From: a virus
Direction: 5' to 3' (one strand)
Virus record (IMG/VR): IMGVR_UViG_3300007960_000035
Location: 1 to 49,893 of that record
DNA: 49,893 nucleotides
This document shows positions 1-38,843 of this stretch, piece after piece; the first letter of the stretch is position 1; each line of letters opens with the position of its first letter. The notes beneath the pieces were generated by a model. The model did not search any database. It saw only the letters and a program-made list of their open reading frames with translations, and was not told the origin of the DNA. Position numbers and translations under genes: made by a program.

Positions 1-171
1 ACGGCGACGGCGTCGACCGTGCAGATCGGCATCAACGCCGGCGGGTCGTTCGGGTCGTTCGCGACTCTGCGTGGCGGCGAGCCGGCGGTCGTCAGGCTCT
101 CGGCCGGGACGGAATACGAGGCCGTCGGCGTCGCCGGCACCCGCCTGCGCGTCGACATTACGGAAGGCTGA
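1..171 (+). CDS. Partial hypothetical structural protein (C-terminal 56 residues)
   Basis: Reading frame 1 is open from the window edge to a TGA at 169-171, so only the C-terminus is present. The visible part is rich in Gly, Ala, Val and Thr with alternating hydrophobic residues, as expected of a beta-rich virion protein. The next gene follows 3 bases later on the same strand, suggesting one structural operon. No family is recognisable from this fragment. Confidence 0.65.
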   Translation, partial: TATASTVQIGINAGGSFGSFATLRGGEPAVVRLSAGTEYEAVGVAGTRLRVDITEG

Positions 172-9015: not shown

Positions 9016-10181
9016 AGCAGGCCGTCCTCGACAAGGTCGTCGAAGACCAAGTCGCTGCCGGGCCGCCGGAGGACGCCGAACAGGTCACCAAAAAGACCGA
9101 CGGCGACACCGTCGAGGTCCGCAGCACGAGCCGCCGCATCAAGACTGTCGAAGACCTCCTCGAGCACATCGAGGCGGATATGACGAGGTATGAAGTGGCT
9201 GCCTCCGAAGCAACGAAGTGGGAGTGTGCCTCGAGTGACGGCGACGGCAACACGACGGTGACCGAGTTGCACCGAGTCTTCGTCAGACTGAAGCCCAAAG
9301 CCGGCCCAGGCGTCCGCGAGATCGTCGAGGCGATGATCGCCGGTGCCGTCGGGCTCAAGTCGCGGCCGGTGAGCCGGCACAAGCGCGGCGGCGACGGCCC
9401 GTGGCAGGTGATCGTCGTTGCAGACACGCACTTCGGGAAGCGCGGCTGGAAGAAGACAACCGGCCAGGCAGACTACGATCTCGACATCGCGGCGAGCGTC
9501 GTCCGCGAGGCGGCGACGGAGTTGATCGCCATCGGCAACGAACTGAAGCCGGCTCGCCGGACGATCTTGATGCTCGGCGACCTGTTCCACTTCGACAACC
9601 CGAAGTGGCAGACGACCAGCGGGACGCAACTCGACGGCGACGGCCGGCTCCAGAAGGTCATCGAGTACGGCAGCGAGACTCTGTTGGGAATCGTCGAGCA
9701 GTCGGCGGCGTTTGTGTCGACCGACGTACACATCGTCAACGGCAACCACGACGAAACCCTGACGGCCGCGTTTCAGCGGATCATGTTCGAGCGGTTTCGC
9801 AACGACCAGCGTGTCGCGGTCTCGATGAAGTTCACCGGCCGGCAGTACGTCACGCACGGCGGCAACTTGCTTGGCATGGCCCACGGTCACAAGGCGAAGA
9901 AGCGGCTGCCGCAACTCATGGCGCTGGAGGCAGCAGCCGACTGGTCGAAGTGTCCGTACCGCGAGTATCACACCGGACACTTCCACTCCCAAGCGGCTGA
10001 GTGGCAGAGGCCCATCGAAACCATTGATGGGGTTCTGGTCAGGACGGCGCCATCGATCGGCGGGACAGACGAGTGGCACGCCGACGCTGGCTTCATTGGC
10101 TCCCGACGGGCTATGGAGACCTTCCTCTACCGACCGGAAGGCGGGCTCACGGCCATGCACGTCGCCGGGGTGCAGCCATGA
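8994..10181 (+). CDS. Calcineurin-like metallophosphoesterase, 395 aa
   Basis: All metallophosphoesterase motifs are in order: VVADTHFGK (D144, H146), LGDLFHFDN (D196), NGNHDE (N251, H252, D253), HGHK (297-299) and TGHFHS (328-332). The first 130 residues form an extra N-terminal region with charged helices. GTG 8994 is chosen because it is preceded by AGGGGGTC. Such proteins in phages are usually nucleases or phosphodiesterases of DNA metabolism. It overlaps the next gene by ATGA. Confidence 0.9.
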   Translation: MAQKPRLKQAVLDKVVEDQVAAGPPEDAEQVTKKTDGDTVEVRSTSRRIKTVEDLLEHIEADMTRYEVAASEATKWECASSDGDGNTTVTELHRVFVRLKPKAGPGVREIVEAMIAGAVGLKSRPVSRHKRGGDGPWQVIVVADTHFGKRGWKKTTGQADYDLDIAASVVREAATELIAIGNELKPARRTILMLGDLFHFDNPKWQTTSGTQLDGDGRLQKVIEYGSETLLGIVEQSAAFVSTDVHIVNGNHDETLTAAFQRIMFERFRNDQRVAVSMKFTGRQYVTHGGNLLGMAHGHKAKKRLPQLMALEAAADWSKCPYREYHTGHFHSQAAEWQRPIETIDGVLVRTAPSIGGTDEWHADAGFIGSRRAMETFLYRPEGGLTAMHVAGVQP

Positions 10182-15947: not shown

Positions 15948-16928
15948 ATGAAGACAGCACTCATCACGGGCATCACCGGCCAGGACGGCTCCTATCTGGC
16001 CGAACTTTTGCTCGCCAAGGGGTACGACGTCCACGGCGTCGTCAGGCGGTCGAGCACGTTTGGGACGCAGCGGATCGAGCACATCTTCGATCGCGTTACG
16101 CTGCACTACGGCGACGTGACCGACGGCGGCGCCTTGATGCGAATCGTCGGGGAGGTCGACCCAGACGAAATCTACAACCTCGCCGCCCAGAGCCACGTCC
16201 GCGTGTCTTTCGATCAGCCGGCCTACACGGCCGACGCGGTCGCAATCGGCACGCTCAACGTGCTCGAGGCGGCCAGGACGGTGCCGTTCTGCCGCGTCTA
16301 CCAGGCGTCGTCGAGCGAGCAGTACGGCAACGCATCGGCTGAACCGCAAAACGAGACAACGCCATTTCGTCCGCGGTCCCCATACGGCTGCGCCAAGGTC
16401 TTCGCCCACCATCTGGCGGTGAACTACCGCGAGTCCTACGGCCTTCACGCCTCCTGCGGCATCCTCTTCAACCACGAGAGCCCACGGCGCGGCGAGACGT
16501 TCGTGACCCGCAAGATCACCCGTGCTGTTGGCCGCATCAAGCACGGCCTGCAAGAGAAACTGTTCCTCGGCAACCTCGACGCCATGCGCGACTGGGGCTA
16601 CGCCGGCGACTACGTCGAGGCCATGTGGCTCATGCTCCAGCAGGACGAGCCGGACGACTACGTCATCGCCACCGGCAAGGCGCAGACCGTCCGCGAGTTC
16701 TGCGAGGCAGCGTTCGCCGCGGCCGGCATGGACTACCGAGACCACGTCGAGACCGACCCACGCTACTACCGACCGGCCGAGGTGGACTTCCTCCTCGGCG
16801 ACGCCTTGAAGGCTTCGCGCGTCCTCGGCTGGCAGCCGGCCACGAAGCCGGAGGAGTTGGTCGGCATGATGGTCGAGGCCGACATCGAACTTGCGAGGCA
16901 GGAGTATGTCGTTGCTCAGTCTCGCTGA
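15948..16928 (+). CDS. gmd: GDP-mannose 4,6-dehydratase, 326 aa
   Basis: Converts GDP-D-mannose to GDP-4-keto-6-deoxy-D-mannose. Extended SDR with NADP-binding [12 protein letters not shown] (8-19), active-site SSSE (121-124; the catalytic Thr of E. coli Gmd is Ser here), Y146-x3-K150 (YGCAK) and the diagnostic [11 protein letters not shown] (175-185). Length is a little shorter than E. coli Gmd. It overlaps the GDP-fucose synthase gene by 23 bases, so the two are made together. The product is also the substrate of a perosamine-synthase-type enzyme such as the DegT protein at 35138. Confidence 0.96.
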
Positions 16929-17838
16929 CTGCCGGGTGCTGGTCACCGGCGGCGCAGGCTTCCTCGGCCGCGTCGTCTGCCGCCTGCTCAAGGATCGAGG
17001 CTGCACTCAGGTCACGGTCCCGCGTCGGGCAGTCTGCGACCTCACCGACCCACGGTCGACGGCCAGGCTGTTCGCCGCCTGCCAGCCGGACGTCGTCTTG
17101 CACCTGGCCGCGGAGGTCGGCGGCATCGGCGCCAACATGAAAGCGCCGGGGAGGTTCACCTACGCCAACCTCGCCATGGGCCTGAACGTCATCGAGGCAG
17201 CGAGGCTTCACGGCTGCCGCAAAACCGTCGTCGTCGGCACCGTCTGCTCCTACCCGCTGTCTCCGCCGGTGCCGTTTAAGGAGGAAGACCTCTGGAGCGG
17301 CTACCCGGAGCCAACCAATGCCGGCTACGGGATCGCGAAAAGGGCGGTGTACGAACTGCTCAAGCAGTACCAAAAACAGTACACCATGGCCGGCGCCGTC
17401 GTGATCCCGACGAACCTCTACGGCCCCGGCGACAACTTCGACCCGGCGTCCAGCCACGTCATTCCCGCGATGATCCGGCGGTTCTGCGGAGCCGGCGACG
17501 TCACGCTCTGGGGGAGCGGAACTGCCAGCCGTGAGTTCCTCCACGTCGCCGATGCGGCCGAAGGGATTCTCATGGCCGCCGAACGCATCGAAACGCCGGA
17601 GCCGATCAACCTCGGCGGTGGCGGCGAGGTGTCGATGCGAGACTTGGCCGAACTGATCGCCGGCGAGTGCGAGTACCACGGCACGATCCGCTGGGACTCC
17701 TCGAAGCCGGACGGCCAACCTCGTCGGGCCGTCGACGCCTCGAGAGCGAAAGAGCTTCTCGACTGGCAGCCGCAGGTGAATCTGAAGCAAGGAATCGCCG
17801 AGACGGTCGCGTGGTGGCGGTCACAGGCTACGTCTTGA
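16906..17838 (+). CDS. fcl: GDP-L-fucose synthase (epimerase/reductase), 310 aa
   Basis: Makes GDP-L-fucose from the Gmd product. NADP-binding GGAGFLG (15-21), then C114, Y141, K145 and H184, which match E. coli Fcl C109, Y136, K140 and H179 with a constant offset of five; catalytic Ser107 is replaced by Thr112. [11 protein letters not shown] is the family signature. ATG 16906 is preferred over an upstream TTG. The 3' end overlaps the convergent gene at 17828 by 11 bases. Confidence 0.95.
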
Positions 17839-18998: not shown

Positions 18999-19240
18999 TA
19001 CTTCACCTCCGGCGGCTCGGGAAGCGGCATCCAGTGGGTCACGTTCGGGAAGAGCCACTCACCGCCGTAGTTGCAAAACCACGCCTCCCCGTCAAACGAG
19101 GCGACGTGGTTCCCGTCCATGGCTGTATGAACGAGAACGAGGGCGTCCTTTTCAGGCATCCTCTCGATCACCGGAATCCAGCGTTGCGCCTGCTCCTGCA
19201 ACTCTTCGATCTCGGCGTGCGTCCGCGTTCTGTCCGTCAC
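18998..19240 (-). CDS. DUF551 domain protein, 80 aa
   Basis: The core RWIPVIERMPEKDALVLVHT and the ending VTHWMPLPEPP match DUF551, a family of small proteins frequent in phages and prophages. GTG 19240 overlaps the integrase stop (GTGA), so translation is coupled to the integrase. Biochemical role unknown. Confidence 0.85.
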   Translation of the reverse strand: MTDRTRTHAEIEELQEQAQRWIPVIERMPEKDALVLVHTAMDGNHVASFDGEAWFCNYGGEWLFPNVTHWMPLPEPPEVK

Positions 19241-20094
19241 GACACCCTCGGGATCATCTCCGGCGCCGCCTGCGGCTTCACAATCCGCGGGTCGAGATAC
19301 TTCCTCGTCGTCGCCGGGTCGGAGTGATCGAGCAGCCGCTGCGCCGACCCGCCGGCGGCCTCGAAGAAGGACGCCGTCGTCCGTCGAATGCGGTGGAACT
19401 TGTCCCGACGGCCGTGCGGCAGGCCGGCACGTCGAAGGATGATGCCCAGGCGGCCCCAGAGGTACGACCGTGTGTTCGGCCACGGGAAGACAAATTCCTC
19501 TGGCCCGCGGCCAAGCCGGATCGCTTGAAGCGCATTCCGCGTGTCCTCGCCGATCTCGCGGATCACGTCGCGACGGCCGCCCTTGCGTGTCTCGGCCACG
19601 AAGAGAACGTGCGTGTCGCTGACGTCGCACCACTTCAGCGACATCAACGCCGTCACCCGCTCCGCGGTGTCGTAGGCGAGCAGCACCAGCGCCCGCCAGT
19701 AGGAGGCACCGGGAATTCCGGCGATCGTCGTCTTCTCCTTGCCGGCGGCCTCGAGGAGTCGCCGCATGTCCTCGACGAACCACGCCTGCGGAACCCTCTC
19801 TGGGATTCGCACAGGCGGGTACTGAGGCCACGTCGAGCACAGGCCACGTCTCGAGGAAAACTCGTGGATGGCCCGCAACTGGGCACGGTCTTTGGCCGCC
19901 GTCGCCACCGCCCTCTCGCGGCAACGGGCGGCCAGAAACCGTGCCACCGTCAACTCGTCGAGGTCGTCGAGCGTGGGCTCTCTGCCCAAGTGTCTCGCCA
20001 ACGCCTTGATCGTGATGGAGTAGTTTTCCACGCTGCGGTCAGACAGCGAACGCAGGGGGGCGTACAGGTCTTTCAGGATGTCATTCAAAAGCAT
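19237..20094 (-). CDS. int: Tyrosine recombinase (phage integrase), 285 aa
   Basis: Core-binding N-terminal half, then a catalytic domain with the complete residue set: R146 (AERVTAL), K171 (TRKGG), H234 and R237 (HRIR), H257 (LLDHSD) and nucleophile Y266 (RKYLDP). It would integrate and excise the phage genome. ATG 20094 has GAGGGTGA upstream; an alternative ATG at 20133, abutting the previous stop, would add 13 residues but has no ribosome-binding site. The Shine-Dalgarno lies in a hairpin (see 20099-20116). Presence implies a temperate life style. Confidence 0.93.
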   Translation of the reverse strand: MLLNDILKDLYAPLRSLSDRSVENYSITIKALARHLGREPTLDDLDELTVARFLAARCRERAVATAAKDRAQLRAIHEFSSRRGLCSTWPQYPPVRIPERVPQAWFVEDMRRLLEAAGKEKTTIAGIPGASYWRALVLLAYDTAERVTALMSLKWCDVSDTHVLFVAETRKGGRRDVIREIGEDTRNALQAIRLGRGPEEFVFPWPNTRSYLWGRLGIILRRAGLPHGRRDKFHRIRRTTASFFEAAGGSAQRLLDHSDPATTRKYLDPRIVKPQAAPEMIPRVS

Positions 20095-20133: not shown

Positions 20134-20346
20134 TCACGCAAGGGCGTGTAGTCTAGGAAGTGGAAAGACGTCGATCTCCTCGATCCGGCAATGCGGATGC
20201 TTCGTCATGTTCGCCGCAGCCCATATCAACCGAACTCGGGCTTTCGCCGTGTCGGCAGAATCAGCAAAAACGGAAAACTCATCGGCATCGAAAATGTCGC
20301 CGTCGGTCCAGGTGACGACGGCCAGCCATCGCTTTTCTGCGGGCAT
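20134..20346 (-). CDS. Hypothetical protein, 70 aa
   Basis: First gene of the minus-strand integration operon; ATG 20346 with AAGGAG at good spacing. Begins MPAEKRWLAVVTWTDGD; the pattern of short beta strands followed by a helix (SADTAKARVRLIWAA) looks like a small alpha/beta protein. No family recognised. Its stop is directly next to the alternative integrase ATG. Confidence 0.72.
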   Translation of the reverse strand: MPAEKRWLAVVTWTDGDIFDADEFSVFADSADTAKARVRLIWAAANMTKHPHCRIEEIDVFPLPRLHALA

Positions 20347-20384
20347 GATTGGCTCCTTCCGATCTGCTTGCCGCCTAACAGTCG

Positions 20385-21122: not shown

Positions 21123-21144
21123 GCCGCCCGCCAAGGAGGACGGC

Positions 21145-22542
21145 ATGGAAGGCTTGTGGCGACATCAGGTCGAGGCGATCGAGTGGGCGCGGGAGCGGCG
21201 CTCGATCCTCCTGCACCACGAAATGGGCTGCGGGAAGACCAGGACAGCCATCGAGATTCTCAAGGAACTCTTGGCCTCTCAGGAGGCAGGCAAGCCGTTC
21301 CGCGTGCTCGTCTGCTGCCCGAAGGCGGTGATCGCCGCGTGGCTCAAGCAGGCGAGCCTCTGGTGGCCCGAGGCCCGCGTCTGCGCGTTGACCAAGGGCA
21401 CCGCGAAGGCGAAGAGCAAGCAGGTCGCCGCGGCTCTGGCCGACCTCTCGCCCCTGCTGATCGTCGTCAACTACGAGACCGCCTGGCGTGCTGAACTCCT
21501 AGAGAAGACATCGTGGTCGGCGGTCGTCTGGGACGAGGTGCATCGACTCAAGAGCCCCAGTGGAGCGGCGAGCCGCTGGGCGGCCAGGGTCTGCAAGAAA
21601 AACCCCACGGCCAAGCGGGTCGGGCTCTCTGGCACGATGGTGCCGCAGGTTCCTCTGGACATTTACGGAATATATCGCAGCGTCGAGGCTCCTGAGTGCC
21701 AGACATTCGGGCAGTCGTACACCCTCTTCAAGGCCAATCACGCCATCTGCCCGCCGGGGCAGCACTTCGTCGTCGCATGGAAGAACCTTGAGCAACTGCA
21801 CCAGAAGATCGCCGCGACGACGCATCGGGTGAAGAGCGCCGACGTCCTCGATCTGCCGCCGATCCGCTTCTTCGACGTGCCGTGCGACCTCTCGTCGCAG
21901 GAGGCCCGCGTCTACAAGGAGATCGAACGCGAGTTCTGCGCCGTGGTCGAGGAAGGCACCGTGACGCCGGCCAACGCGCTGGTGCAACTATTGAGGATGC
22001 AACAGATATGCGGAGGCAGCGTCACATTCGACGGCGACCAGACGGCCCGCCAAATCGTCGAGCACCCCGCCAAGGCGGAGGTGCTGGCCGATATGCTGGA
22101 GGATTCCCCCGCGGACGAGCCATGGGTGATCTTCTGCCGCTTCAAGAGCGACATCGCCGCCGCACGCAAAGTCTGCGAGACGCTCTCGCGGAAGTACGGA
22201 GAACTCAGCGGAGCGAGGAACGATCTGGCCGCTTGGCAACAAGCGGAGACAACAGTCTTGATCACGCAGATTCAGAGTGGCGGAATCGGCGTCGACCTGA
22301 CCCGATCACGCTACTGCTGCTTCTACTCGCTGGGCTACTCGCTCTCCGACTACCTCCAGGCCGTGGCGCGTCTGCACCGGCCGGGGCAGAGTCACGAGAC
22401 GTCGATCTGGCACCTCGTGGCGACGATTGACGGCCGCTCCACCGTGGACGGCCGCGTGTATCAGGCACTTCGTGAAAGACGGGAGGTCGTGGATGTCATC
22501 GTCGACGGATACGCAGCCGGCATTGCAAGCGGCGCTCGCTGA
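21145..22542 (+). CDS. SNF2-family DEAD-like helicase, 465 aa
   Basis: ATG 21145 follows AAGGAGGACGGC. Motif I HHEMGCGKTRTA, motif II VVWDEVHRLKSP (DEVH), motif III GLSGTM, and the C-terminal motifs V and VI ITQIQSGGIGVDL and QAVARLHRPGQ are all present, so both RecA-like lobes are complete. Phage SNF2-type helicases act in replication or recombination. It is somewhat short, consistent with a minimal phage form. The downstream coiled-coil gene overlaps by 50 bases. Confidence 0.94.
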   Translation: MEGLWRHQVEAIEWARERRSILLHHEMGCGKTRTAIEILKELLASQEAGKPFRVLVCCPKAVIAAWLKQASLWWPEARVCALTKGTAKAKSKQVAAALADLSPLLIVVNYETAWRAELLEKTSWSAVVWDEVHRLKSPSGAASRWAARVCKKNPTAKRVGLSGTMVPQVPLDIYGIYRSVEAPECQTFGQSYTLFKANHAICPPGQHFVVAWKNLEQLHQKIAATTHRVKSADVLDLPPIRFFDVPCDLSSQEARVYKEIEREFCAVVEEGTVTPANALVQLLRMQQICGGSVTFDGDQTARQIVEHPAKAEVLADMLEDSPADEPWVIFCRFKSDIAAARKVCETLSRKYGELSGARNDLAAWQQAETTVLITQIQSGGIGVDLTRSRYCCFYSLGYSLSDYLQAVARLHRPGQSHETSIWHLVATIDGRSTVDGRVYQALRERREVVDVIVDGYAAGIASGAR

Positions 22543-22933
22543 GATCGCCGAGATCGATCGGCAGGTCGCAGAACTGGATGACAAGTCTGACGAACTGAAG
22601 AAACGCCGCGCTCAACTCGAGGAGATCGCCCTCGAGGAGATCGCGACGCAGCGCCTCGACGGAGTCAAGGCGGCAGGGAGGAGTTGGCGAGTCGAGTGGT
22701 CTCACTCGTTCTCGGCGCCGGAGGCGCGAAAGGAGGCGGTGATGGAGGCCGCCCGACGTGCGGGACTGCTGGACAAGGTCACGCAGGTGAACACGGCACG
22801 CCTCAAGGCGTTGCTGACGGAGAAAGCCAAGGAGGCGGGGACGGACCCCCGCCGGCTTTTTTCGGACGGGACGGAGTTCGAGGGGTTGGTCGGCGAGTAC
22901 GTCCGGCCGGTCCTGCGTCATCGGGCGGTCTGA
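22493..22933 (+). CDS. Coiled-coil protein, 146 aa
   Basis: ATG 22493 has GGGAGG 6 bases upstream although it lies inside the helicase gene. Residues 10-50 form a strong coiled coil (EIDRQVAELDDKSDELKKRR), followed by VKAAGRSWRVEWSHSF and an alpha-helical C-terminus. Proteins of this layout are frequent between phage SNF2 helicases and SSB-like genes; host-nuclease inhibitor Gam-like proteins share the coiled-coil start, but no firm match is visible. Confidence 0.8.
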   Translation: MSSSTDTQPALQAALAEIAEIDRQVAELDDKSDELKKRRAQLEEIALEEIATQRLDGVKAAGRSWRVEWSHSFSAPEARKEAVMEAARRAGLLDKVTQVNTARLKALLTEKAKEAGTDPRRLFSDGTEFEGLVGEYVRPVLRHRAV

Positions 22934-23971: not shown

Positions 23972-24673
23972 GTGGGGGGCAAAAAAACAATCGTCGCTGG
24001 CGTCGAGTTCGCGAGCCTAAAGGGACTTGCCGGCTACTGCCGCGAGGTCATATCGGCCACGGCAGACGGCGAGTTCATTGAACGCGGCGACTTCATGCTC
24101 AACCTCATCCGGCAGCGCCACAGCACGCCTGACGAGAAGATTCTCCCTGGCCTCGAGGACGAAATCGTTGGGGTTCGGGTGCGGCACGAGTCCGCCAGGG
24201 CAATTCTCAGAAAGGCGTCCCGCAATCACACGTTTGTTGTCTACCGCGGCGGTCTGGAAATCTCGTTCTCGTGGGTTCAGTGCTGCACCGGATTCAGGAG
24301 CAAATCAAGTTGGCTCACGCGGTGTATGCGGGTGGCCGTTGACGCGGACATTCGGGCCTACAAGAGGCTGCGCTTTGCCGCGTCATCGTCGCTGACCAGC
24401 GACATCAGCGGGCAGCCGATCACATGGGGCACATGCCAAGTCGATCACGTCCATCCGCTGACGTTCGCGAAACTGCGGGACGACTTTCTGTCCGGCTGGC
24501 CGGCTCCGGCAGAGAGCATCCAACTCAAGCAGGACGACCTCGGCGGCTGGGTGCTGGCAGACGATGAATTTGAGAAGGCTTGGGTTCTGTATCACCAGTC
24601 GCACTGCCGGCTGCAATTGGCGACACCGGAAGAGAATCAGAGAAGTTGGAGAAACGATCAATCAAAGGAGTGA
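23972..24673 (+). CDS. DUF3223 (DCL-type) protein with HNH-like C-terminal half, 233 aa
   Basis: GTG 23972 with GAGG 7 bases upstream. Residues 10-120 match the DCL/DUF3223 layout: a D-F-M-L-N-L-I-R-x-R-H helix, an EDEIVGVRVRHES strand, and TFVVYRGGLEISFSWVQC. The C-terminal half has CQVDHVHPLTFAKL and HQSHCRLQLATPEENQ, an HNH-like pattern (DH..P, N) similar to proteins that pair DCL with a nuclease. It precedes the prim-pol gene by 4 bases. Confidence 0.8.
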   Translation: MGGKKTIVAGVEFASLKGLAGYCREVISATADGEFIERGDFMLNLIRQRHSTPDEKILPGLEDEIVGVRVRHESARAILRKASRNHTFVVYRGGLEISFSWVQCCTGFRSKSSWLTRCMRVAVDADIRAYKRLRFAASSSLTSDISGQPITWGTCQVDHVHPLTFAKLRDDFLSGWPAPAESIQLKQDDLGGWVLADDEFEKAWVLYHQSHCRLQLATPEENQRSWRNDQSKE

Positions 24674-24677
24674 TTTG

Positions 24678-26399
24678 ATGAGTGACACAAAGTTCAAGTG
24701 GGCTGCGCAGTACGCCGCCAGAGGGTGGTACATCGTCGTCTGCCACGGCTCCAGCGGCGACAGGTGTACCTGCGGGAACGAAAGTTGCGCGACGCCTGGT
24801 AAGCATCCGGTGCTGAACGCATGGCAGCACAAGTCCACGATCGACGAAGACGAGTTGTCGCACTGGTTCGACGGGACCAAGAACTTCAACGTCGGCGTGC
24901 AGTTGGGCGAGAAGAGCGGCATCATCGATATCGAGTTCGACACCGATCAGGGGCGCAAGACGGCCGAGAGATTCGGGCTCGACAAGGCATACACGCCGAC
25001 CTTCACGTCGAAGCGGTCGACGCACCGGCTCTTCAAGTGGGATCAGCGTCTGCCGCAGAAGGCCGTCCACAAACTCAATGGCCTCGAGATTCGCATCGGC
25101 GGCGGCGGCGGCGGGGCGCAGTCGATCATGCCGCCGAGCGCTCACTCCAGCGGAGCATCGTACTCGTGGGTCAACGGCATGAGCCCCGAGGACTGCGATG
25201 TAGCGGAACTGCCGAAGGAGCTTCTGGTCGCGATCATCAACGACGCCGGAGAGGACGGCGGAGAAAAGCAGCCGTCCGCGAACCTTCTGCTCTACAAGCC
25301 AGCCGAGGAGGGCGACCGGCACCACTCGCTGGTCAGATTCGCGGCGCGGCTGTGCATCAACATGGTCAACGTGCATGATCCTGTCGAGCAGCAGGACGTC
25401 CACGAAATGATCAAGGCGATGAACAAGCAGAGGTGCAATCCGCCGAAGGGCGAGGACGAGATCGAGAACATCTTCCGGCACGAGTTGCAGTGGGCCACAA
25501 GGAAGCGTGCTCAAGGGATCGCCGACGACGCCGAAAAGTCGAAGGCTCTGGCCGAGCGGATGGAGAAAGGGGCGGAGACGGAAGGCGACGGCGGCAAGAA
25601 AGACCTTCCATTCACGTTCACCGGCCTCCGGTACGACGGCGAGCAGTGGTGGCCTGGTCAGTGGCAACTCAAGGTCATCCACTCCGACCCCGTGTCCTAC
25701 AGCCTGACGGTGCCGGTGTTCCGCGAGGTCGGCGGCCAGCAGAAGACCGTCCGCGTTTCGGTGCCGCTGTGCGTCGAGACGTTCCGGTCGGCCGCCAAGG
25801 TGGCCGCGGCGATCCTCGAGTCGACGCACACCGTGATCGTCGATCAGGTGCCCGAGGAGTGGTTCTCCGTCTGGAACGGGCAGGGCAAGAAGAAGGGGAA
25901 GTCGGCCGTCAGGGGTTTGAAGGCCAAGTTGATGGACGAGGCGACCCACGAGGCGGCTACCGCAGAGAACTGCCGCTTCGCGACCGTGGCCGGCTGGCTC
26001 CTCGAGGTGCTGATGATGACCCCGAAGCCGGACGACGACGCCGACGACGACGGGAGCCCAGACGTCACAGGGATGCCGGCATGGGTCCGCGGACGGGATG
26101 GGGTCTGGGAACTGTGGTTCGCGTGGATGAAGGCGTGGGAGATGGTCGACAGGGGCCGCAGGAAGCTCGAGGAGGGCGATATCGCCAAGATCAAGAAGAT
26201 GATCCTGTCTGGGGTCGGTCAGGCCAAATTGCCCGCCTCCAGGGCCGCAGGCGAGGGCGGCAGCAGCCGCCGGTTCGTGCGGTTCACGATCCATCACCTG
26301 CGGGTTTTGGAACGCCTGGCGGCCGGCGAGTTCGGCGCCGAGGCTGAGACCGCCTTTTCTATTCACGAGGAATTCGATTTCGAAATCGAAAAAAATTGA
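24678..26399 (+). CDS. Bifunctional DNA primase/polymerase (AEP prim-pol), 573 aa
   Basis: ATG 24678 with AAAGGAG. N-terminal prim-pol domain: C30/C32/C37 zinc-type cluster, PGKHPV, catalytic IIDIEFD (D84, E86), STHRLFKW (H116) and LEIRIGGG (E137), the three AEP motifs. No helicase motifs are seen in the remaining 400 residues, so unlike many phage prim-pols it lacks a fused helicase. It would prime or copy DNA; helicase work may be supplied by the neighbouring SNF2 and UvrD-like enzymes. Acidic insertion DDDADDDG near residue 455. Confidence 0.92.
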   Translation: MSDTKFKWAAQYAARGWYIVVCHGSSGDRCTCGNESCATPGKHPVLNAWQHKSTIDEDELSHWFDGTKNFNVGVQLGEKSGIIDIEFDTDQGRKTAERFGLDKAYTPTFTSKRSTHRLFKWDQRLPQKAVHKLNGLEIRIGGGGGGAQSIMPPSAHSSGASYSWVNGMSPEDCDVAELPKELLVAIINDAGEDGGEKQPSANLLLYKPAEEGDRHHSLVRFAARLCINMVNVHDPVEQQDVHEMIKAMNKQRCNPPKGEDEIENIFRHELQWATRKRAQGIADDAEKSKALAERMEKGAETEGDGGKKDLPFTFTGLRYDGEQWWPGQWQLKVIHSDPVSYSLTVPVFREVGGQQKTVRVSVPLCVETFRSAAKVAAAILESTHTVIVDQVPEEWFSVWNGQGKKKGKSAVRGLKAKLMDEATHEAATAENCRFATVAGWLLEVLMMTPKPDDDADDDGSPDVTGMPAWVRGRDGVWELWFAWMKAWEMVDRGRRKLEEGDIAKIKKMILSGVGQAKLPASRAAGEGGSSRRFVRFTIHHLRVLERLAAGEFGAEAETAFSIHEEFDFEIEKN

Positions 26400-26479
26400 T
26401 GGATTTGTGGAAACGTGGTTTTTGTGTCGCAAGTGATTGCAGGACAAGGACTTAGGGAAACCATCTTTCGGGAGGCACG

Positions 26480-28135
26480 TTGGAAACGTGGTCAAAAATG
26501 GCTGTTCAGGTGGCAAGATTGGTAGGTGGGGCAGGAACGGGAAAGACAACGGAGTTGATGAGGATCATTGAGGAAGCCAAAAACCAGTTGGGCGGTAGCC
26601 CGTTCGCCGTCGGCTTCACAAGTTTCACCAGAGCGGCTCGGGCGGAGGCCGTTTCTCGGGCCAGCGCGGCGTGGGGTGTTCAGGAGGACGTCCTGAGCGA
26701 TTCCGGCTGGTTCAGAACCGTCCATTCGATCGCCTACAAGCAATTGGGTGTCAAAAAGGGGGAGTTGGTCGACGACAGCAAGGCGTCGGCGGAGTGGATC
26801 GCCGGAGCCCTCGGCGTCAACGTCAGGACGATCATCGACGAGGACTCCGGGTACTCGAGGTTCACGGGCGAAAAGCAGGCCGCCGCGGCCCTGAACGCCT
26901 GGGAGCAGGCCAGGTCGCGGATGGAGCCACTGAAGGACACAATCCTGCGGGCGGCCCGCCTGGGCGATCCTGTGCCGTCCTACGCGGTTTGCAAGCAGTA
27001 CATCGAGAAATACCAGTCGGCCAAGCTCCTCGAGAACCGCTGCGACTTCACCGACCTCTTGGCCCGGTTCTGCGGAATCCGGTTCACGGTCGACGGCTTC
27101 GAGGAGACGGACCCCGAGGGCGAACTGCCGCCGAATGTGCAGGCGTGGGTGATGGACGAGCAGCAGGACGCCTCGGCTCTGGTCGACCGCTGCTGCCGAA
27201 GGCTTGCGAGCGGTGGAAGTGTAAAATGGGTCTATATCGCCGGAGACCCGATGCAGAGCATCTTCGGCTTCGGCGGCTCAGACTCCCGCCTCTTCATGTC
27301 GTGGGACGTCGCGAAACAGAGGGTCATGCCGAAGACTTGGAGGTGCCCACCCCCTGTCCACAACCTTGGCGAGGCGTGCCTCAAACGAATGCGTGAGGGG
27401 TACTGGGATCGCGGTATAGCCGCGGCCGACCACGAAGGGGAGGTGATCAAAGGCGGGTACGCGGAGAGCGTCGCCGCCTCTCTGTCAGCCGGCGAGAAGA
27501 CTCTGGTCATCGCCCGCTGCAACTACATCGTCGAGAAGTGGGAGCAGGCGCTTCAGGCGAAGGGTCTTCCGTTCGCCAGGCTCAAGGCGAAGGAAGGCAC
27601 GAAGTTTTTGCGGGCCGCCAACGCCCTCTGGAAAATCGAGCACGGCGAGCCGGCGAACGCAGATGACTTCGCCGCCGCGGTCGACGCGATGCCGGCGACC
27701 GGCAACATGGTCAAGGGCACGAAGGCTGCCTGGAAGCGAGAAGACACCATCCGCCGGTGGGAAATGGTCTCCCCGGCGGAACTCGAGGAGACCGGCATGA
27801 AGCCGGAGTTCGCCGACCGAATCAGAAAGGGCGGCTGGGGCGACCTGTTCCCCAACGCCGCCCGTTGGCGGAAGGCCGCGAAGAGGCACGGGCCAGAATT
27901 GGCGACAAGCCCACACATCAGGGTCGGCACCATCCACGCCGCGAAGGGGATGGAGGCCGACACCGTCGTGCTGTCGACGACCGTGAGCCGAAGAATCTAC
28001 GAAGCGCAGGGGATCGACAAGGAGCAGCACGACGAAGAGCGACGCATCGAGTACGTCGGCGTCACGAGGGCCAGAAAACGCCTGATCACCGCGACCGAGC
28101 AGCAGGCCGAGTACCGGATGAGGCTGCCGATATGA
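26480..28135 (+). CDS. UvrD/Rep-type SF1A helicase, 551 aa
   Basis: Walker A GGAGTGKT near the N-terminus, motif II VMDEQQDAS, motif III AGDPMQSIFGF, motif IV TWRCPPPVHNLG, motif V TIHAAKGMEADTVVL and motif VI YVGVTRARKRL, in correct order. A 3'-to-5' DNA helicase role in replication or recombination is expected. The start is either TTG 26480 (GGGAGG 4 bases upstream) or ATG 26498; TTG is used here. Overlaps the next gene by ATGA. Confidence 0.92.
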   Translation: METWSKMAVQVARLVGGAGTGKTTELMRIIEEAKNQLGGSPFAVGFTSFTRAARAEAVSRASAAWGVQEDVLSDSGWFRTVHSIAYKQLGVKKGELVDDSKASAEWIAGALGVNVRTIIDEDSGYSRFTGEKQAAAALNAWEQARSRMEPLKDTILRAARLGDPVPSYAVCKQYIEKYQSAKLLENRCDFTDLLARFCGIRFTVDGFEETDPEGELPPNVQAWVMDEQQDASALVDRCCRRLASGGSVKWVYIAGDPMQSIFGFGGSDSRLFMSWDVAKQRVMPKTWRCPPPVHNLGEACLKRMREGYWDRGIAAADHEGEVIKGGYAESVAASLSAGEKTLVIARCNYIVEKWEQALQAKGLPFARLKAKEGTKFLRAANALWKIEHGEPANADDFAAAVDAMPATGNMVKGTKAAWKREDTIRRWEMVSPAELEETGMKPEFADRIRKGGWGDLFPNAARWRKAAKRHGPELATSPHIRVGTIHAAKGMEADTVVLSTTVSRRIYEAQGIDKEQHDEERRIEYVGVTRARKRLITATEQQAEYRMRLPI

Positions 28136-28599
28136 GCCTCCTTTTTGACATTTCTCCGACAGACGAGCCTCAAAAGAAGCGCAGCGGCAAGAAGAAGCAG
28201 GCAGAAGAAGCCGCTGCCGCTCCAGAGCCCGCTGTCGTCGTGCCCAAGAGAATCAGCGACGAGCCGCCCAAACCCCTCGGCGCTGCGGACGGGTTCGTCT
28301 GCATCAACGAAGCGTGCGGCGGCACATGCCACGACATTTGGAAGAAGTCCAGAGGTCTTTGGCTTATCGAGTGCTTTGAGTGCGGCACCGGGCAGTGGGT
28401 CGAGGCCCAAGAGGAGGCCCAGGAGACGGAGGAGGATTCCTTCCGGTTTCCAGAGGGAGTCCGCGACACGTTCGTCGGCCTGACGATCGACGAGGTCGAC
28501 GCTCTCGGCCGGCGAGACTACATCGTCTGGGCAGCAGAAAACTGCCGGATCGGAGACGTCCGCGACGCCGCGAAAAAATGGCTTGCAGCCCGCGGGTGA
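28132..28599 (+). CDS. Zinc-ribbon-containing hypothetical protein, 155 aa
   Basis: ATGA overlap with the helicase gene. A Lys/Glu/Ala-rich N-terminal tail (KKRSGKKKQAEEA) is followed by a ribbon CINEACGGTCHDI and IECFECGTG, then an acidic helical C-terminus with TIDEVDALGRRDYIVWAAE. Probably nucleic-acid associated. No exact family recognised. Confidence 0.78.
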   Translation: MSLLFDISPTDEPQKKRSGKKKQAEEAAAAPEPAVVVPKRISDEPPKPLGAADGFVCINEACGGTCHDIWKKSRGLWLIECFECGTGQWVEAQEEAQETEEDSFRFPEGVRDTFVGLTIDEVDALGRRDYIVWAAENCRIGDVRDAAKKWLAARG

Positions 28600-28626
28600 G
28601 TCTGCTAGCCTTCTGGCCGACACAAC

Positions 28627-28645
28627 CGGCGAAAGGAGTTTGCCG
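28627..28645 (+). promoter_or_regulatory. GGA-loop hairpin over the csrA Shine-Dalgarno (CsrA-type operator)
   Basis: CGGCGAA (28627-28633) pairs with TTTGCCG (28639-28645) through 7 pairs including one G-U, leaving the loop AGGAG, which is the ribosome-binding site of the csrA gene. GGA in a hairpin loop over a Shine-Dalgarno is the known CsrA target architecture, so autorepression is predicted. Confidence 0.55.
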
Positions 28646-28648
28646 CTC

Positions 28649-28831
28649 ATGCTCGTGATCACGCGGAAGGATCGGCAGTCGATCAAGATCGGGCCTGACA
28701 TCCTGGTCACCGTCTGGCGGACAGACGAGGGCAGGATTCGAGTCGGCATCGACGCGCCGAGGGATTTGGCGATTCATCGCGCCGAATCGTCGGCCAAGCC
28801 TCACGCCAAGGAGGAGGCGACCAGTGGTTGA
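28649..28831 (+). CDS. csrA: CsrA-family RNA-binding translational regulator, 60 aa
   Basis: Starts MLVITRKDRQSIKIGPDI and continues RVGIDAPRDLAIHRAE, matching CsrA along its length; the RNA-contact residues R6 and R44 of E. coli CsrA are conserved at the same positions. CsrA dimers bind GGA motifs in mRNA hairpins and block ribosome binding. AAAGGAG precedes the ATG and sits in a hairpin loop. A phage-borne copy could reprogramme host mRNAs or control phage genes. Confidence 0.95.
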   Translation: MLVITRKDRQSIKIGPDILVTVWRTDEGRIRVGIDAPRDLAIHRAESSAKPHAKEEATSG

Positions 28832-29177: not shown

Positions 29178-29915
29178 ATGAAGGCTGCTGCTGCATTCAT
29201 CGCGTCGATTGCTCCGGCTCTGGCCGGCACGATCGACGACTCGCTGCCCGACTCGGTCTACCTCGCCTACGGGCAGCAGTTCGCTCCGTTCACCCGTCGC
29301 GTCGAGGTCGTCGGCGTCGACGGCAAACTGGCGATCGGCAGCGGCTGCGTGATCGGCGACAGGTGGGTGCTGACAGCGGCGCACGTCGTCGACAACGCCG
29401 TGACGATCTCGGTCAGCGGCAACCCGGTCGTCACCTACTGGCAGCATCAAGACTGGGAGAGCGACCGCGTCGGATACAACGACATCGCGGCTCTCTACTG
29501 CAAGGCCGACTTCAGCCTCGACTACTACCCGCCATTGGCGACAAGCGGAGACACCGTCGGTGCCACGGTGACGCTGGCCGGCTACGGAGTCACCGGCCGC
29601 ATGGCCGGAGGCTACACGCGATCCGACGGGCTCCTGCGGGCCGGCACGAACACGATCGCGGGGCTTGAGCGGACGCTGATCGTCTGCGGGATCAACTCTG
29701 GCTCGAGCCCGAGGGAGTACGGAATCGCCCCCGGAGACTCCGGCGGGCCGCTGTTCGTCGGCGCCGGCTCCGAGGCCCGCCTGGCGGGCATCCACTCCTT
29801 CACGATGCGCGCCGGCACCGGCCCTCTGCGGAGCCGCAACGGTGAGGAGAGCGCTCACACGAGGGTGTCGCTGTTTGTCAGGTGGATCGATCGTGTCAGG
29901 GGGATGGTGCGGTGA
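29178..29915 (+). CDS. Secreted trypsin-like (S1 chymotrypsin-fold) serine protease, 245 aa
   Basis: N-terminal signal peptide-like MKAAAAFIASIAPALAG. The catalytic triad is complete: H69 in WVLTAAHVV, D102 in YNDIAALYC and S188 in APGDSGGPLF, with the expected oxyanion glycines. Length is typical of S1 enzymes. The protein should be exported, so it may act in the periplasm or outside. Such proteases are rare in phages; host-derived capture is likely. The stop overlaps the DNA methyltransferase start (GTGA). Confidence 0.92.
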   Translation: MKAAAAFIASIAPALAGTIDDSLPDSVYLAYGQQFAPFTRRVEVVGVDGKLAIGSGCVIGDRWVLTAAHVVDNAVTISVSGNPVVTYWQHQDWESDRVGYNDIAALYCKADFSLDYYPPLATSGDTVGATVTLAGYGVTGRMAGGYTRSDGLLRAGTNTIAGLERTLIVCGINSGSSPREYGIAPGDSGGPLFVGAGSEARLAGIHSFTMRAGTGPLRSRNGEESAHTRVSLFVRWIDRVRGMVR

Positions 29916-32852: not shown

Positions 32853-33272
32853 ATGAACTGCAAAGTCTACAAGGCCGCAGAACTCCCAGAGCACGAGCGG
32901 GTCTGGATCGCCCACCGCCTGACGAAGGCGGGCAGTGACTTCAACGCCAAACTCGTCTACTGGACGTATGGCCGCGGTGCTGCCGTGGAGTCCGACGGCA
33001 GCATCGCGGTCGTCTACGACCACGGCGAGATTATCGGCTGGGCGAGGACGGAGACGTGGCGTGGCTACGACACGCTTGAGGCTTTCGTTGCGCCGGAGCA
33101 TCGGGGCCGCGGTGTGGCGGCGTTCGCGGCGTCCGGCCTTGCGGCATCCACGCTGAACGCCAACGGTGGCAGCGTCGCGGTCTTCGCGCCGTCGATGATG
33201 CTGGTCGCCCGCCGCGCCGGCCTCCACCCGGAACTGTTCGAGAGAGTCGACGGCGAGTGGAGGGCGGCGTGA
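32853..33272 (+). CDS. GNAT-like acetyltransferase, 139 aa
   Basis: The segment LEAFVAPEHRGRGVAAFAASGL carries the R/Q-x-x-G-x-G/A acetyl-CoA motif, preceded by GEIIGWARTE, a normal GNAT strand pair. The rest of the fold is compatible in length. It overlaps the next gene by GTGA. Substrate unknown; it is distinct from the GNAT at 8339. Confidence 0.78.
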   Translation: MNCKVYKAAELPEHERVWIAHRLTKAGSDFNAKLVYWTYGRGAAVESDGSIAVVYDHGEIIGWARTETWRGYDTLEAFVAPEHRGRGVAAFAASGLAASTLNANGGSVAVFAPSMMLVARRAGLHPELFERVDGEWRAA

Positions 33273-33705: not shown

Positions 33706-33965
33706 TGGACGATGACCTCGAGGCGCTCTGCGACCGCTACGAACTTCTTTGGCGTCGAGCCAGAGAAGGTGCCGCCAGCGCCAACAAGGCGATCGGCAGG
33801 CTCCAGGCCCGCGTCGACTTCCTGAAGACCGAGGTGGAGGAGTTGGAGGATGAGTTGGCGGTCACGCAGAGCCGCCTCTCCAGAGCGAACAGGGAGAACG
33901 AGCAACTGGAGAAGAAGGTTCAACGGTTGAGCCTCAAGATTCTTGAACTCTGGAGCCGCGAGTGA
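33705..33965 (+). CDS. Coiled-coil protein, 86 aa
   Basis: Residues 25-80 form a long coiled coil (FLKTEVEELEDELAVTQSRL and continuation). Begins MDDDLEALCDRYELLW. It overlaps the previous gene by one base and the next by one (TGATG). Probably an oligomer or scaffold; no target recognised. Confidence 0.78.
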   Translation: MDDDLEALCDRYELLWRRAREGAASANKAIGRLQARVDFLKTEVEELEDELAVTQSRLSRANRENEQLEKKVQRLSLKILELWSRE

Positions 33966-34117
33966 TGGCGAAGAAGAAGTATTCCCAAGGCACGACGCAA
34001 AAGTCGGTCTCGAAGAACATCTCCAAGCTGGTCGACGAGGGCTACCCGCAGAAGCAAGCCGTCGCCATCGCCCTGGACATCGCGAATCAGGCGAAGAAGA
34101 AAAAGGGCGACAAGTGA
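33965..34117 (+). CDS. Small basic conserved phage protein, 50 aa
   Basis: MAKKKYSQGTTQKSVSKNIS, then KLVDEGYPQKQAVAIALDIA and a Lys-rich end. The SKNI.KL..EGYPQKQAVAIAL core is a recurrent small phage motif of unknown role, perhaps nucleic-acid binding given the charge. TGATG coupling with the upstream gene. Confidence 0.75.
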   Translation: MAKKKYSQGTTQKSVSKNISKLVDEGYPQKQAVAIALDIANQAKKKKGDK

Positions 34118-35141: not shown

Positions 35142-36223
35142 GCAAAGACATCTCCTTCGGCGCTGCGGTCGTCGGCGACGCCGAGGTGGCGGCGGTGCGC
35201 CGCGTCTTGGAATCCGGCCGGCTGACCCGCGGGCCTGTGTGCGAGGAGATGGAGGCGGACCTCGCCAGGCTCACCGGCCTCGAGGCGCACGTCGTCTCCA
35301 GCGGCACCGCGGCGATGCATCTGGCCCTGCTGGCCGCCGGCGTGCAGCCCGGCGACCGCGTGATCGTGCCGGCCACGACCTACGTGGCGACCCTCAACGC
35401 GGTGCTCTACTGCGGCGCCGAGCCGGTGCTGGTCGACGTCTGCCCGGCGACGTGGACGATCGACTTCGACGAGGCCGTTGAGGAGGCCGAGAGCCGGCAG
35501 GCCGCGGCGATCGTCCCCGTTCATCTCTACGGCGTTCCTGCCCCTTCGTTTCACGGGTGGCGGGAAGATTATTTCCGCCGCACCGGCCGGCTGGTGCGAA
35601 TCGTCGAGGACGCCGCCGAGAGCCTCGGGTGCCTGCGATCAGGCCGGCACCCGTGCGGAGACCTGGCCGCGCTCTCGTTCTTCGGCTCCAAGACGATCAC
35701 GACAGGCGAAGGCGGCGCGGTGCTGTGGCGCGACCCCACGCTCGGTGCCCGCGTCCGGCATCTGGCTGGACAGGCGATGACGAAGCAGAGGTATCGCCAC
35801 GACACCGTCGGCTTCAACTACCGGATGACGGAACTTCAGGCGGCCATCGGCGTCGAGCAACTCAAGAAGCTGCCGGCTCTCCTCGACGCCCGCCGCCATG
35901 TGTTCGCCTGGTACGACGAGTTTCTGCCTGCCGGGTGGCGACGACAGGACATCGACAGAAACGACACGCACGGCCTGTGGGCCTACGCAGCGACGAACAA
36001 CGAACTCGACGCCAGAAGGGTCATCCACGGCATGGCTCAGGCCGGCATCGAGTGTCGTCCGATCTTTCCGCCTCTGGGCCGGCACAACCACGCCGAGAGG
36101 TTTGCGGCGTACACGCCGCTGGCGGACTTTCTGCACGACCGCGGCATCGTTCTTCCCACGCACCCGCTCCTGACCAGAGACGACGTCAGTCGCGTGTGCG
36201 AAACCCTGGCGGAGTGGAAATGA
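35138..36223 (+). CDS. DegT/DnrJ/EryC1 aminotransferase, probable GDP-perosamine synthase type, 361 aa
   Basis: PLP-dependent sugar aminotransferase. GTG 35138 overlaps the nuclease stop. SGTAAMHLALLAAGV, VEDAAESLG (D158) and SFFGSKTITTGEGG with PLP lysine K185 are present; the last motif is characteristic of perosamine synthases of the RfbE/Per group. It would aminate GDP-4-keto-6-deoxymannose, the product of the phage Gmd at 15948. Two glycosyltransferases follow without gaps. Other 4-keto-sugar substrates cannot be excluded. Confidence 0.92.
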   Translation: MSKDISFGAAVVGDAEVAAVRRVLESGRLTRGPVCEEMEADLARLTGLEAHVVSSGTAAMHLALLAAGVQPGDRVIVPATTYVATLNAVLYCGAEPVLVDVCPATWTIDFDEAVEEAESRQAAAIVPVHLYGVPAPSFHGWREDYFRRTGRLVRIVEDAAESLGCLRSGRHPCGDLAALSFFGSKTITTGEGGAVLWRDPTLGARVRHLAGQAMTKQRYRHDTVGFNYRMTELQAAIGVEQLKKLPALLDARRHVFAWYDEFLPAGWRRQDIDRNDTHGLWAYAATNNELDARRVIHGMAQAGIECRPIFPPLGRHNHAERFAAYTPLADFLHDRGIVLPTHPLLTRDDVSRVCETLAEWK

Positions 36224-36993
36224 AGATCGTCGGCGTTTCCATGTTCATGGCCGACTGCGGCAAGCACTTGCAGCGCCGCCTCGAGCACCTCGTGTCCAAG
36301 CGCGGCGTGTCGGCGTGGGTGTGGATCGTCCGTCGAACCAACGATGTCACCGACCGGCTTCTGCACGCCTTCGTCGACTCCTCGCCGGTGCCGGCGATGG
36401 TGATCGAGGAGTCGTGGCCGCAGCCGGCCGACAGGCTCATGGCGGTGTCGATGGCCGGTGACGTCGCCATGAACGCCGCGCTGATGCGAGGCGCCGAGAG
36501 GATTCTGTTCCACGAGAGTGATCTGATCTCGCCGGAGGACGTGGCCCTGCGGCTGGGCGAGGTTCTGGATTCCTCGCCGGCGGCGGCCGTCGCCGGCGGG
36601 TGGCCGTGCCTGGCGAGCGAGGGGATGGACGAGTCGCTGATGCTCTTCGACGGCGCCGCCCGCCTGGGCCGCGAGATGCAGATCGCCTTCGACGGCCAGC
36701 CAGCGGCACTGCCGTTCTTCTATGACTCGTGGGGGTATCGGCTCGACGGCCAGCGGTTCGCGTCTGTGCCTCCGTACTCGCCGTGCTATCGGCCCGACGA
36801 GCCGTTTCGGCTGGATTCCGTCGGAAGCGTCGCGCTCATCGACGCGAGGTGGCTGCGATACGGCGCACGCATGGAACACGACGGGTTCGTGAGGCTCTGC
36901 GACCAGATACGCCAGATGGAAGGAGAAGTGTGGTGCGACCCGAGGATCATCATCAATCAGCCGCTCGAACTATGGACGTTCCAGAACAACTGA
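36220..36993 (+). CDS. Glycosyltransferase-like protein, 257 aa
   Basis: ATGA overlap with the aminotransferase gene. MKIVGVSMFMADCGKHLQRR start, then AWVWIVRR and RILFHESDLISPEDV, a D-x-D-like nucleotide-sugar site around residue 99, followed by AVAGGWPCL. Layout is a GT-A type enzyme. It is likely to transfer the aminosugar made next door. Confidence 0.76.
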   Translation: MKIVGVSMFMADCGKHLQRRLEHLVSKRGVSAWVWIVRRTNDVTDRLLHAFVDSSPVPAMVIEESWPQPADRLMAVSMAGDVAMNAALMRGAERILFHESDLISPEDVALRLGEVLDSSPAAAVAGGWPCLASEGMDESLMLFDGAARLGREMQIAFDGQPAALPFFYDSWGYRLDGQRFASVPPYSPCYRPDEPFRLDSVGSVALIDARWLRYGARMEHDGFVRLCDQIRQMEGEVWCDPRIIINQPLELWTFQNN

Positions 36994-37853
36994 TCCGGCC
37001 AGAGGACTGGTGGCCTGTCGATCCGCACTGGCAGGAGCGGTACGACCGCATGGTCGGCATCGGCCGCCGGACGGCCGCTCAACTCGACGCCTGCGTCGTG
37101 ATGATCTGCCGCAACTCGATGCCACACCTCGCCAACACGATTGGCCTGCTCCGCGAGTTGTCGCTCGGCTTCAGGTCGATGTCGATCTACGTCCACGAGA
37201 ACGACTCGACCGACGGCACCGGGGAGTTCCTCGACGTCGTGGCGGACGAGAGCTTCTCGATGACTGTCTGCCACGAGACCCTCGGCGGCATCGACGCCCG
37301 TGGGTTTGGTCGCGAGCGGACGGAGCGGCTGGCCTACTGTCGCAACAAGTGCCTGGGGTGGGTCTCGGAGAACGCCTCCCGCACCGCGTGGACGATCGTG
37401 CTCGACTCCGACGCCCACGGCGGGTGGAGCGTCGACGGCGTCTTCAACAGCATCGGGTGCCTGGGCAGCCACAACACCCGGCCGGACTCCTTCCCTGCCG
37501 GCGGCATGGCCTCCTACGGCGTCTATAGACCTCGCCGGCTCGTACCCGAGGCCGCCGGCATCGGCGAGCACGGCATCCTTCAGTACGACGCCTGGGCCGC
37601 CCGGCTCAACGACTGGCGCGACCGCCGCGAGGAGGTTGGGTTCAACTGGTTTTTCTGTCTCCTACCGCCCGTCGGCTCGCCGCCGATTGAGTTCCTGTCG
37701 GCCTTCGGTGGCCTTGCGGTCTACCGTACCGATGCCTTCCTGGCCGGCGGCTACACCGGCGACGACTGCGAGCACGTCGGCCACCACAGAAACATGCGCG
37801 CCGCCGGCTACTCGATGCACTTGAACCCAGGATGCCGCTACGTCGCGTATTGA
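36972..37853 (+). CDS. Glycosyltransferase, CAP59/GT69-like, 293 aa
   Basis: ATG 36972 overlaps the previous gene by 22 bases. CVVMICRNSMPHLANTIGLL, IYVHENDSTDGTGEFLD, RLAYCRNKCLG and TIVLDSDAHGGWS (D-x-D) form the GT-A core seen in CAP59-type alpha-mannosyltransferases. Ends with NPGCRYVAY. Together with the aminotransferase and the previous gene it forms a glycan cassette. Confidence 0.82.
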   Translation: MDVPEQLIRPEDWWPVDPHWQERYDRMVGIGRRTAAQLDACVVMICRNSMPHLANTIGLLRELSLGFRSMSIYVHENDSTDGTGEFLDVVADESFSMTVCHETLGGIDARGFGRERTERLAYCRNKCLGWVSENASRTAWTIVLDSDAHGGWSVDGVFNSIGCLGSHNTRPDSFPAGGMASYGVYRPRRLVPEAAGIGEHGILQYDAWAARLNDWRDRREEVGFNWFFCLLPPVGSPPIEFLSAFGGLAVYRTDAFLAGGYTGDDCEHVGHHRNMRAAGYSMHLNPGCRYVAY

Positions 37854-38379: not shown

Positions 38380-38560
38380 CGACATCGAGGTTTCCGAGTT
38401 CGAGGCTCGCGGTGGCGACGACTCGCCTCCGCTGGTCAACAAGGTGGCCGACCCGCCGCCGGCGGGCTGGGGAAAACTCACCGGCACGGCGAGGACGCTG
38501 TCTCCGGCATATCTGCGATTCTTAAGCAAGGGCATGGAGGCTGACGGTGGACATCGATGA
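38366..38560 (+). CDS. Hypothetical protein, 64 aa
   Basis: Overlaps neighbours by 14 bases on both sides. MDRPNDIEVSEFEARGGDDS and a Pro-rich centre (ADPPPAGWGK), no strong ribosome-binding site. The dense overlap pattern supports reality but confidence is moderate. Confidence 0.55.
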   Translation: MDRPNDIEVSEFEARGGDDSPPLVNKVADPPPAGWGKLTGTARTLSPAYLRFLSKGMEADGGHR

Positions 38561-38843
38561 CGACGAAGAACTGTACGGCGCCGGCTTCCCGTTGCTGGAG
38601 AAGTTGAAACTCCTCGCCGAGTGGGCTCCGCTCATTTCGCAGTTGCAGGCCATCGGCGCGGCGAAGACGCCGCACGATCAAGCCGTCGCGCTCGTGCGGA
38701 CGCTCCAGTGGGCCGCCGGCAAGAGCATGAACACCATCGACGACGAGGCGCTCGAGCACGTCGAGGCGGTGCTGGCGACGCCGGAGGGCAAGGCGGCCTT
38801 TGAGTGGGCCTACAGCAAGATCAGCGGCGGAGAACAGGCATGA
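38547..38843 (+). CDS. Hypothetical protein, 98 aa
   Basis: GTG 38547. Acidic N-terminus (DIDDDEELYGAGF) then helices with PLISQLQAIGAAKTPHDQAV and ALEHVEAVLATPEGKAAFEW. Possibly a small structural or assembly protein as it is followed by membrane proteins. No family recognised. Overlaps the next gene by ATGA. Confidence 0.74.
   Translation: MDIDDDEELYGAGFPLLEKLKLLAEWAPLISQLQAIGAAKTPHDQAVALVRTLQWAAGKSMNTIDDEALEHVEAVLATPEGKAAFEWAYSKISGGEQA

Follow-up and report, generated by a model that had tools for sequence, protein, structure and literature searches.

Would a CsrA protein made by a phage act on the mRNAs of its host or on those of the phage itself? Thirty csrA-carrying phages have been listed (PMC7366521), knockdown of csrA in the E. 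coli phage PTXU04 led to smaller plaques, and the role of the phage gene was called untested until recently (PMC11879866). Our protein search matched 82 phage csrA records, at ~45–50% identity over the match. We addressed the question in IMGVR_UViG_3300007960_000035, a linear virus record of 49,893 bases that was analyzed over its whole length (hereafter, the window). Because it encodes a tyrosine integrase, the phage is probably temperate. Its other genes include two adjacent nucleotide-sugar enzymes (15948–17838) that by eye resemble GDP-mannose 4,6-dehydratase and GDP-fucose synthase, a DegT-like aminotransferase at 35138, and glycosyltransferase-like open reading frames (ORFs) at 36220–37853, all of which are possibly surface or cargo sugar genes. 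A trypsin-like protease (PF00089) with an apparent signal peptide is found a few genes past csrA, at 29178–29915. Table 1 collects the features that are relevant to the analysis.

Table 1. Features of the window around csrA and at the candidate CsrA sites
Feature	Position	Strand	Basis
Tyrosine integrase	19237–20094	−	PF00589, phrog_1
Candidate CsrA site, GATCGG.AAGGAG.CCAATC (one mismatch), at the ribosome-binding site (RBS) of the 70-aa protein gene (20134–20346)	20347–20364	−	
Weaker candidate site, imperfect hairpin over the SNF2 helicase RBS (gene, 21145–22542)	21127–21144	+	
Candidate CsrA site, AATCA.AAGGAG.TGATT, over the Prim-Pol RBS	24660–24675	+	Sequence; family arm-swap
Bifunctional primase/polymerase (Prim-Pol), candidate CsrA target	24678–26399	+	PF09250
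UvrD-type helicase upstream of csrA, syntenic anchor	26558–28135	+	PF13361/PF00580
csrA promoter motif, −35-like TTGCAG	28583–28588	+	TTGnnn-16..18-TAnnCT motif
csrA promoter motif, −10-like TAGCCT	28606–28611	+	Same motif pair, 17-nt spacer
csrA leader hairpin (predicted CsrA operator covering the RBS), CGGCGAA.AGGAG.TTTGCCG	28627–28645	+	Sequence; covariation in relatives
Shine-Dalgarno AGGAG, hairpin loop	28634–28638	+	Sequence; A(N)GGA in 30/30 aligned leaders
csrA, ATG start, 60 aa, MLVITRKDRQSIKIGPDILVTVWRTDEGRIRVGIDAPRDLAIHRAESSAKPHAKEEATSG	28649–28831	+	PF02599

Judged by its profile match, conserved residues, and predicted fold, the product of the csrA ORF is a genuine CsrA. It matched PF02599 (CsrA) at 64.3 bits, against a Pfam cut-off of 27, and also the CsrA-like PHROG family phrog_9500. 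The RNA-binding residues R6 and R44 are both present, as was claimed when the ORF was originally predicted to be a full-length CsrA. In an alignment of 32 CsrA sequences, L2, A36, P37, and R44 were invariant and R6 was at least 90% conserved. An AlphaFold model (pLDDT 81.5) had only CsrA/RsmA/RsmE proteins as its top Foldseek matches, with a TMq of 0.67–0.69 and an rmsd of ~1 Å to 2jpp, 2mfc, and 5z38, and the best matches were structures of RsmE-RNA complexes. The window protein thus shares with CsrA, RsmA, and RsmE (e.g., Pseudomonas RsmE on the hcnA Shine-Dalgarno hairpin, 2jpp) the PF02599 domain, L2, R6, R44, the APxx..R region, and an ANGGAN at the Shine-Dalgarno (SD) sequence. It differs from them in being encoded by a phage, in having its predicted targets in a phage genome, and in the absence from the window of two partners: FliW (PF02623) and a CsrB/RsmZ-like RNA, which we sought as a cluster of three ANGGAN hairpins, although the host may carry either. 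An Rfam scan returned zero matches at the gathering score.

The SD of csrA forms the loop of a hairpin whose 7-bp stem includes one G-U pair and whose GGA lies 14 nt 5′ of the ATG, exactly where the original prediction had placed it. Taken as a single sequence, the hairpin is mildly unusual, exceeding chance moderately at most. It ranked first among 75 gene leaders of the window, with the leader at 29912 a close second, and it yielded p ~0.006 upon shuffling of the flanks, while an equally good hairpin occurred at 9 of the 1555 GGAs in the window (0.6%). For its composition, the 43-nt leader had an ordinary folding energy (z = −0.36), and one longer sequence context around it favored a different fold. 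As a separate observation, a stem of 19 bp whose 8-nt loop contains GGA is present at 32968–33013, inside a GNAT-like ORF (32853–33272): ATGGCCGCGGTGCTGCCGT...ACGGCAGCATCGCGGTCGT. It was comparative evidence, i.e., compensatory changes among relatives and leaders that were fetched later, that settled the csrA hairpin as real.

Relatives were retrieved with the helicase encoded upstream of csrA, which also served to build a maximum-likelihood tree. A first search yielded seven contigs at 61–80% identity, with csrA immediately downstream in 7/7, and an alignment built from these contigs extended the helicase set to 67 loci. In the tree, the csrA-bearing phages formed one clade (24/24; support 99/97), in every member of which csrA adjoins the 3′ side of the helicase (24/24), and the sister clade was free of csrA (24/24). 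The outgroups, among them L064, a distant record that carries csrA, branched outside both clades. Searches of whole records located csrA in 34/34 csrA+ records and did not find it in 40 others, some of which are fragments. The gene seems to belong to the core genes of the phage clade, and, because the tree has a single split, the contrast between csrA+ and csrA− phages amounts to one evolutionary event. No cultured phage had a helicase nearer than ~26–27%, and a search of genome contigs for the host gave a helicase match to a Planctomycetaceae MAG at only 28%, too low to name a host. Two further observations concern the gene's surroundings: one contig (L089) carries two different csrA genes (10001–10141, +, and another ORF that lies on the − strand around base 392 in the numbering of that strand), and a TatA/B/E-family protein (PF02416) lies near csrA in some csrA+ phages (the G065 record, L118, at 33914–34105 in record coordinates, and five relatives).

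Across the clade, the csrA leader hairpin is kept as a structure rather than as a sequence. The SD lies within A-N-G-G-A-N in 30/30 aligned csrA leaders, including that of the window, while the stems, of 3–5 bp in most relatives, vary in sequence (GCTGA/TCAGC, ACGGA/TCCGT, TCCGA/TCGGA, AGCAA/TTGCT, AACGG/CCGTT, GAGG/CCTC, and AGTGA/TCACT). For 25 distinct leaders, 83% of the stem cells were paired versus 55% after shuffling of the 3′ letters, and the covariation score was 0.708, compared with 0.214 for shuffled leaders and with no more than 0.236 when the register was slid. Each of the five stem pairs tested had changed on both sides (25 distinct relatives). Swapping the 3′ arm between phages abolished the pairing, with a z of 10.3 that came to 7.3 once near-identical leaders were collapsed and to 7.1 by energy. 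The csrA leaders fetched later displayed ANGGAN with 3 or 5 bp in 11/11 cases, and one exception within the clade, L018, had no clear leader hairpin. The hairpin of the window is the longest one and has a loop of 5 nt, one base tighter than the clade's hexaloop, which is why its leader scores just 1 bp in the fixed hexaloop register. Outside the clade, a comparable hairpin was missing at the csrA start of the five phages that we checked (F116, phi297, PTXU04, a Vibrio phage, and a Providencia phage).

A structure conserved in this way might be a feature of translation initiation independent of CsrA, such as an SD-presenting loop or a coupling or thermosensing element, and it is true that looped SDs are accessible to ribosomes and that the stems are short. 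We consider this highly improbable: The position −2 from the GGA is always A in the csrA leaders, which CsrA needs and an SD does not, and the hairpin tracks csrA, while most other leaders of the same phages have none. The ANGGAN hexaloop is, moreover, the published high-affinity site of RsmE/CsrA, and in E. coli, translation of csrA is repressed by CsrA from a site that overlaps the SD (PMC7652899; PMC3791407). Given this target and this precedent, autogenous repression is the most likely function of the hairpin, and we are confident that the sequence data point to translational repression of csrA by its own product.

A promoter motif fits such a circuit. The pair of elements listed in Table 1 belongs to a motif, TTGnnn-16..18-TAnnCT, that was present in 20/31 csrA upstream regions, against a shuffled expectation of 0.09, and, with a transcription start ~7 nt past the −10, the csrA leader would be ~30 nt long and would consist mostly of the hairpin. 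We infer binding, repression, and feedback in the following form. A temperate-type phage encoding CsrA would transcribe, from the gene's own promoter, a csrA mRNA with a short leader, where a CsrA-binding hairpin presents the SD in its loop. Upon accumulation, CsrA dimers would occupy this loop and block 30S binding, so that csrA translation would stop, and the CsrA level would thereby be set through negative feedback. Negative feedback through a CsrA site over the gene's own SD is what E. coli csrA exhibits as well, but the E. coli leader holds four CsrA sites, one of them over the SD (cited in PMC7652899), whereas the phage leader has a single hairpin in ~30 nt and one promoter motif, and is conserved by covariation across a phage clade.

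Less securely, CsrA would also repress a small set of phage mRNAs that carry similar hairpins and would thus act as a regulator of translational timing. Two or three small proteins would belong to this set, along with Prim-Pol, the probable major tail protein, and perhaps the SNF2 helicase. To arrive at it, genes were called in 31 csrA+ and 26 csrA− records, with starts from a simple home-made caller, and were grouped into families by blastp, after which the arm-swap was applied with the hexaloop geometry fixed to that of the csrA leaders. The Prim-Pol leaders gave a z of 6.0 in csrA+ versus 0.0 in csrA− phages, and of 6.1 versus 1.0 in a family-grouped run. The leader of the 70-aa protein reached 6.1 (4.2 in an energy-based version), and that of the SNF2 helicase reached 5.5 in csrA+ and 2.1 in csrA− phages and was not among the top-listed families when energy was used. 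Lower values were obtained in csrA+ phages for a 98-aa protein (38547–38843 in the window; z 3.7) and for a small family of which that run called no member in the window (z 4.3).

Two further families, neither of which was found in the window, stood out by their constancy. In csrA+ phages, a tail-type gene sits between the tail terminator and the tail-assembly chaperone, a position from which we take its product to be, probably, the major tail protein. Its leader carries GCGC.AAGGAG.GCGC at the SD in 17/17 cases, one with a compensated GCGT/ACGC change, and the hairpin recurred in 66/66 further contigs. A 119-aa protein with no function assigned (e.g., G053 26302–26658, −) has a nearly invariant GCAC.ANGGAG.GTGC at the SD in 10/10 leaders. 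Being nearly invariant, the leaders of both families provide little covariation. Among 14 records fetched with the tail gene, 4 contained csrA, 23–31 kb downstream of it; the remaining 10 stop ~12–25 kb downstream, i.e., by our reading of the coordinates before or near the usual distance of csrA, and so do not count against the linkage.

The original prediction held that leaders conserved in phages lacking csrA would speak against it. What we found in the csrA− sister clade was a primase leader without arm-swap signal, as given above, and, for the probable tail-protein leader, a nearest csrA− counterpart without the hairpin. These observations also bear on the idea that the hairpins respond to a host CsrA, through which the phage would sense the state of its host, with the phage CsrA merely supplementing it. 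Many bacteria do have CsrA, and a preference for ANGGAN is common to the CsrA proteins that have been studied (PMC7652899; PMC3791407), yet it is the phage csrA that carries the strongest hairpin, and the csrA− sister phages lack the hairpins, although their hosts may differ. We regard such sensing as unlikely. A covarying SD hairpin was seen in one csrA− family of secreted ~100-aa proteins (fam22; z 4.2), which may be due to chance or may be a host CsrA target.

The evidence for a regulon is weaker than that for the csrA leader. Leaders other than that of csrA had a stem of at least 3 bp in 65/682 cases in csrA+ versus 25/571 in csrA− phages (p = 4e-4), and, outside the named families, the excess in csrA+ phages was not significant. 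The high score of the csrA− family fam22 likewise makes the picture a mixed one. A first, broad scan of all sites with a GGA plus a start showed no hairpin difference between csrA+ and csrA− phages, but it was too unspecific, covering mostly sequences that are not real genes. When the loop size was left free, the energy-based arm-swap gave a clear signal only for csrA and the 70-aa family, and it was weaker than the fixed ANGGAN geometry in every family except csrA. Overall, the hairpins on the other leaders suggest a CsrA regulon of phage genes.

The location of these candidates departs from what was expected. The original prediction looked for targets among GGA-containing leaders of the right arm, which the data do not support: Only two strict ANGGAN hairpins of at least 4 bp exist in the window, at 22843 (inside a gene) and 24667 (primase start), neither of them in the right arm, and the targets with family-level support (Prim-Pol, the 70-aa protein, the SNF2 helicase, and the probable tail protein) lie mostly outside it. 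The first of these two is a perfect hairpin, GGCGGGG.ACGGAC.CCCCGCC, which occupies 22834–22853 within the ORF 22493–22933. The other half of that interpretation, autoregulation of csrA, has fared well, with strong support from covariation, from the ANGGAN loop, and from the linkage of csrA and hairpin throughout one phage clade, a co-occurrence in relatives that it had proposed to look for.

How far, then, is the phage CsrA directed at the host? Autoregulation could be real while the purpose of the protein is still the rewiring of host mRNAs, in which case hairpins at further phage genes would be minor or due to chance. Manipulation of hosts has been put forward as a role of phage CsrA (PMC11879866), and the plasmid homologue RsmQ takes global control of host translation (PMC9928087); the outcome of the energy test and the lack of excess outside the named families also agree with this. 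The nearly invariant tail and 119-aa leaders and the restriction of the Prim-Pol signal to csrA+ phages argue the other way, and we consider host rewiring as the main purpose to be possible though rather doubtful. In our assessment, the chances are about even that the lineage has instead turned CsrA into its own timing regulator, which would act on itself and on an ANGGAN regulon of replication genes and the late, probable tail gene, and would not serve mainly to manipulate the host.

Phages are known to encode autogenous translational repressors such as T4 RegA, T4 gp32, and the MS2 coat protein. As in these systems, the circuit proposed here would have a phage RNA-binding protein act at the RBS to repress its own mRNA, other phage mRNAs, or both; the proteins are unrelated, and the phage of the window would rely on a CsrA fold and a GGA-loop code. 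CsrA homologues are also encoded by F116, H66, and phi297 (RsmM type), by PTXU04 (gp28), and by Burkholderia and other phages (PMC7366521; PMC11879866), which belong to different lineages, include the five whose csrA starts lack a comparable hairpin, and have no phage regulon described in those reports. RsmQ is likewise a CsrA homologue on a mobile element that acts as a translational regulator, on host genes (PMC9928087), whereas the present case points to genes of the element itself. Phage csrA and CsrA autoregulation were thus already known; for an operator or a regulon of a phage CsrA, we found no description in the open-access literature, and hence no published precedent for a regulon of phage genes.

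Phage csrA is usually assumed to be directed at the host. The sequence evolution of this clade points, rather, to the csrA mRNA of the phage itself as what CsrA acts on, probably together with other phage mRNAs, and it provides concrete operators together with a simple, testable circuit, in which autogenous control of csrA would be combined with control of the probable tail-protein gene.
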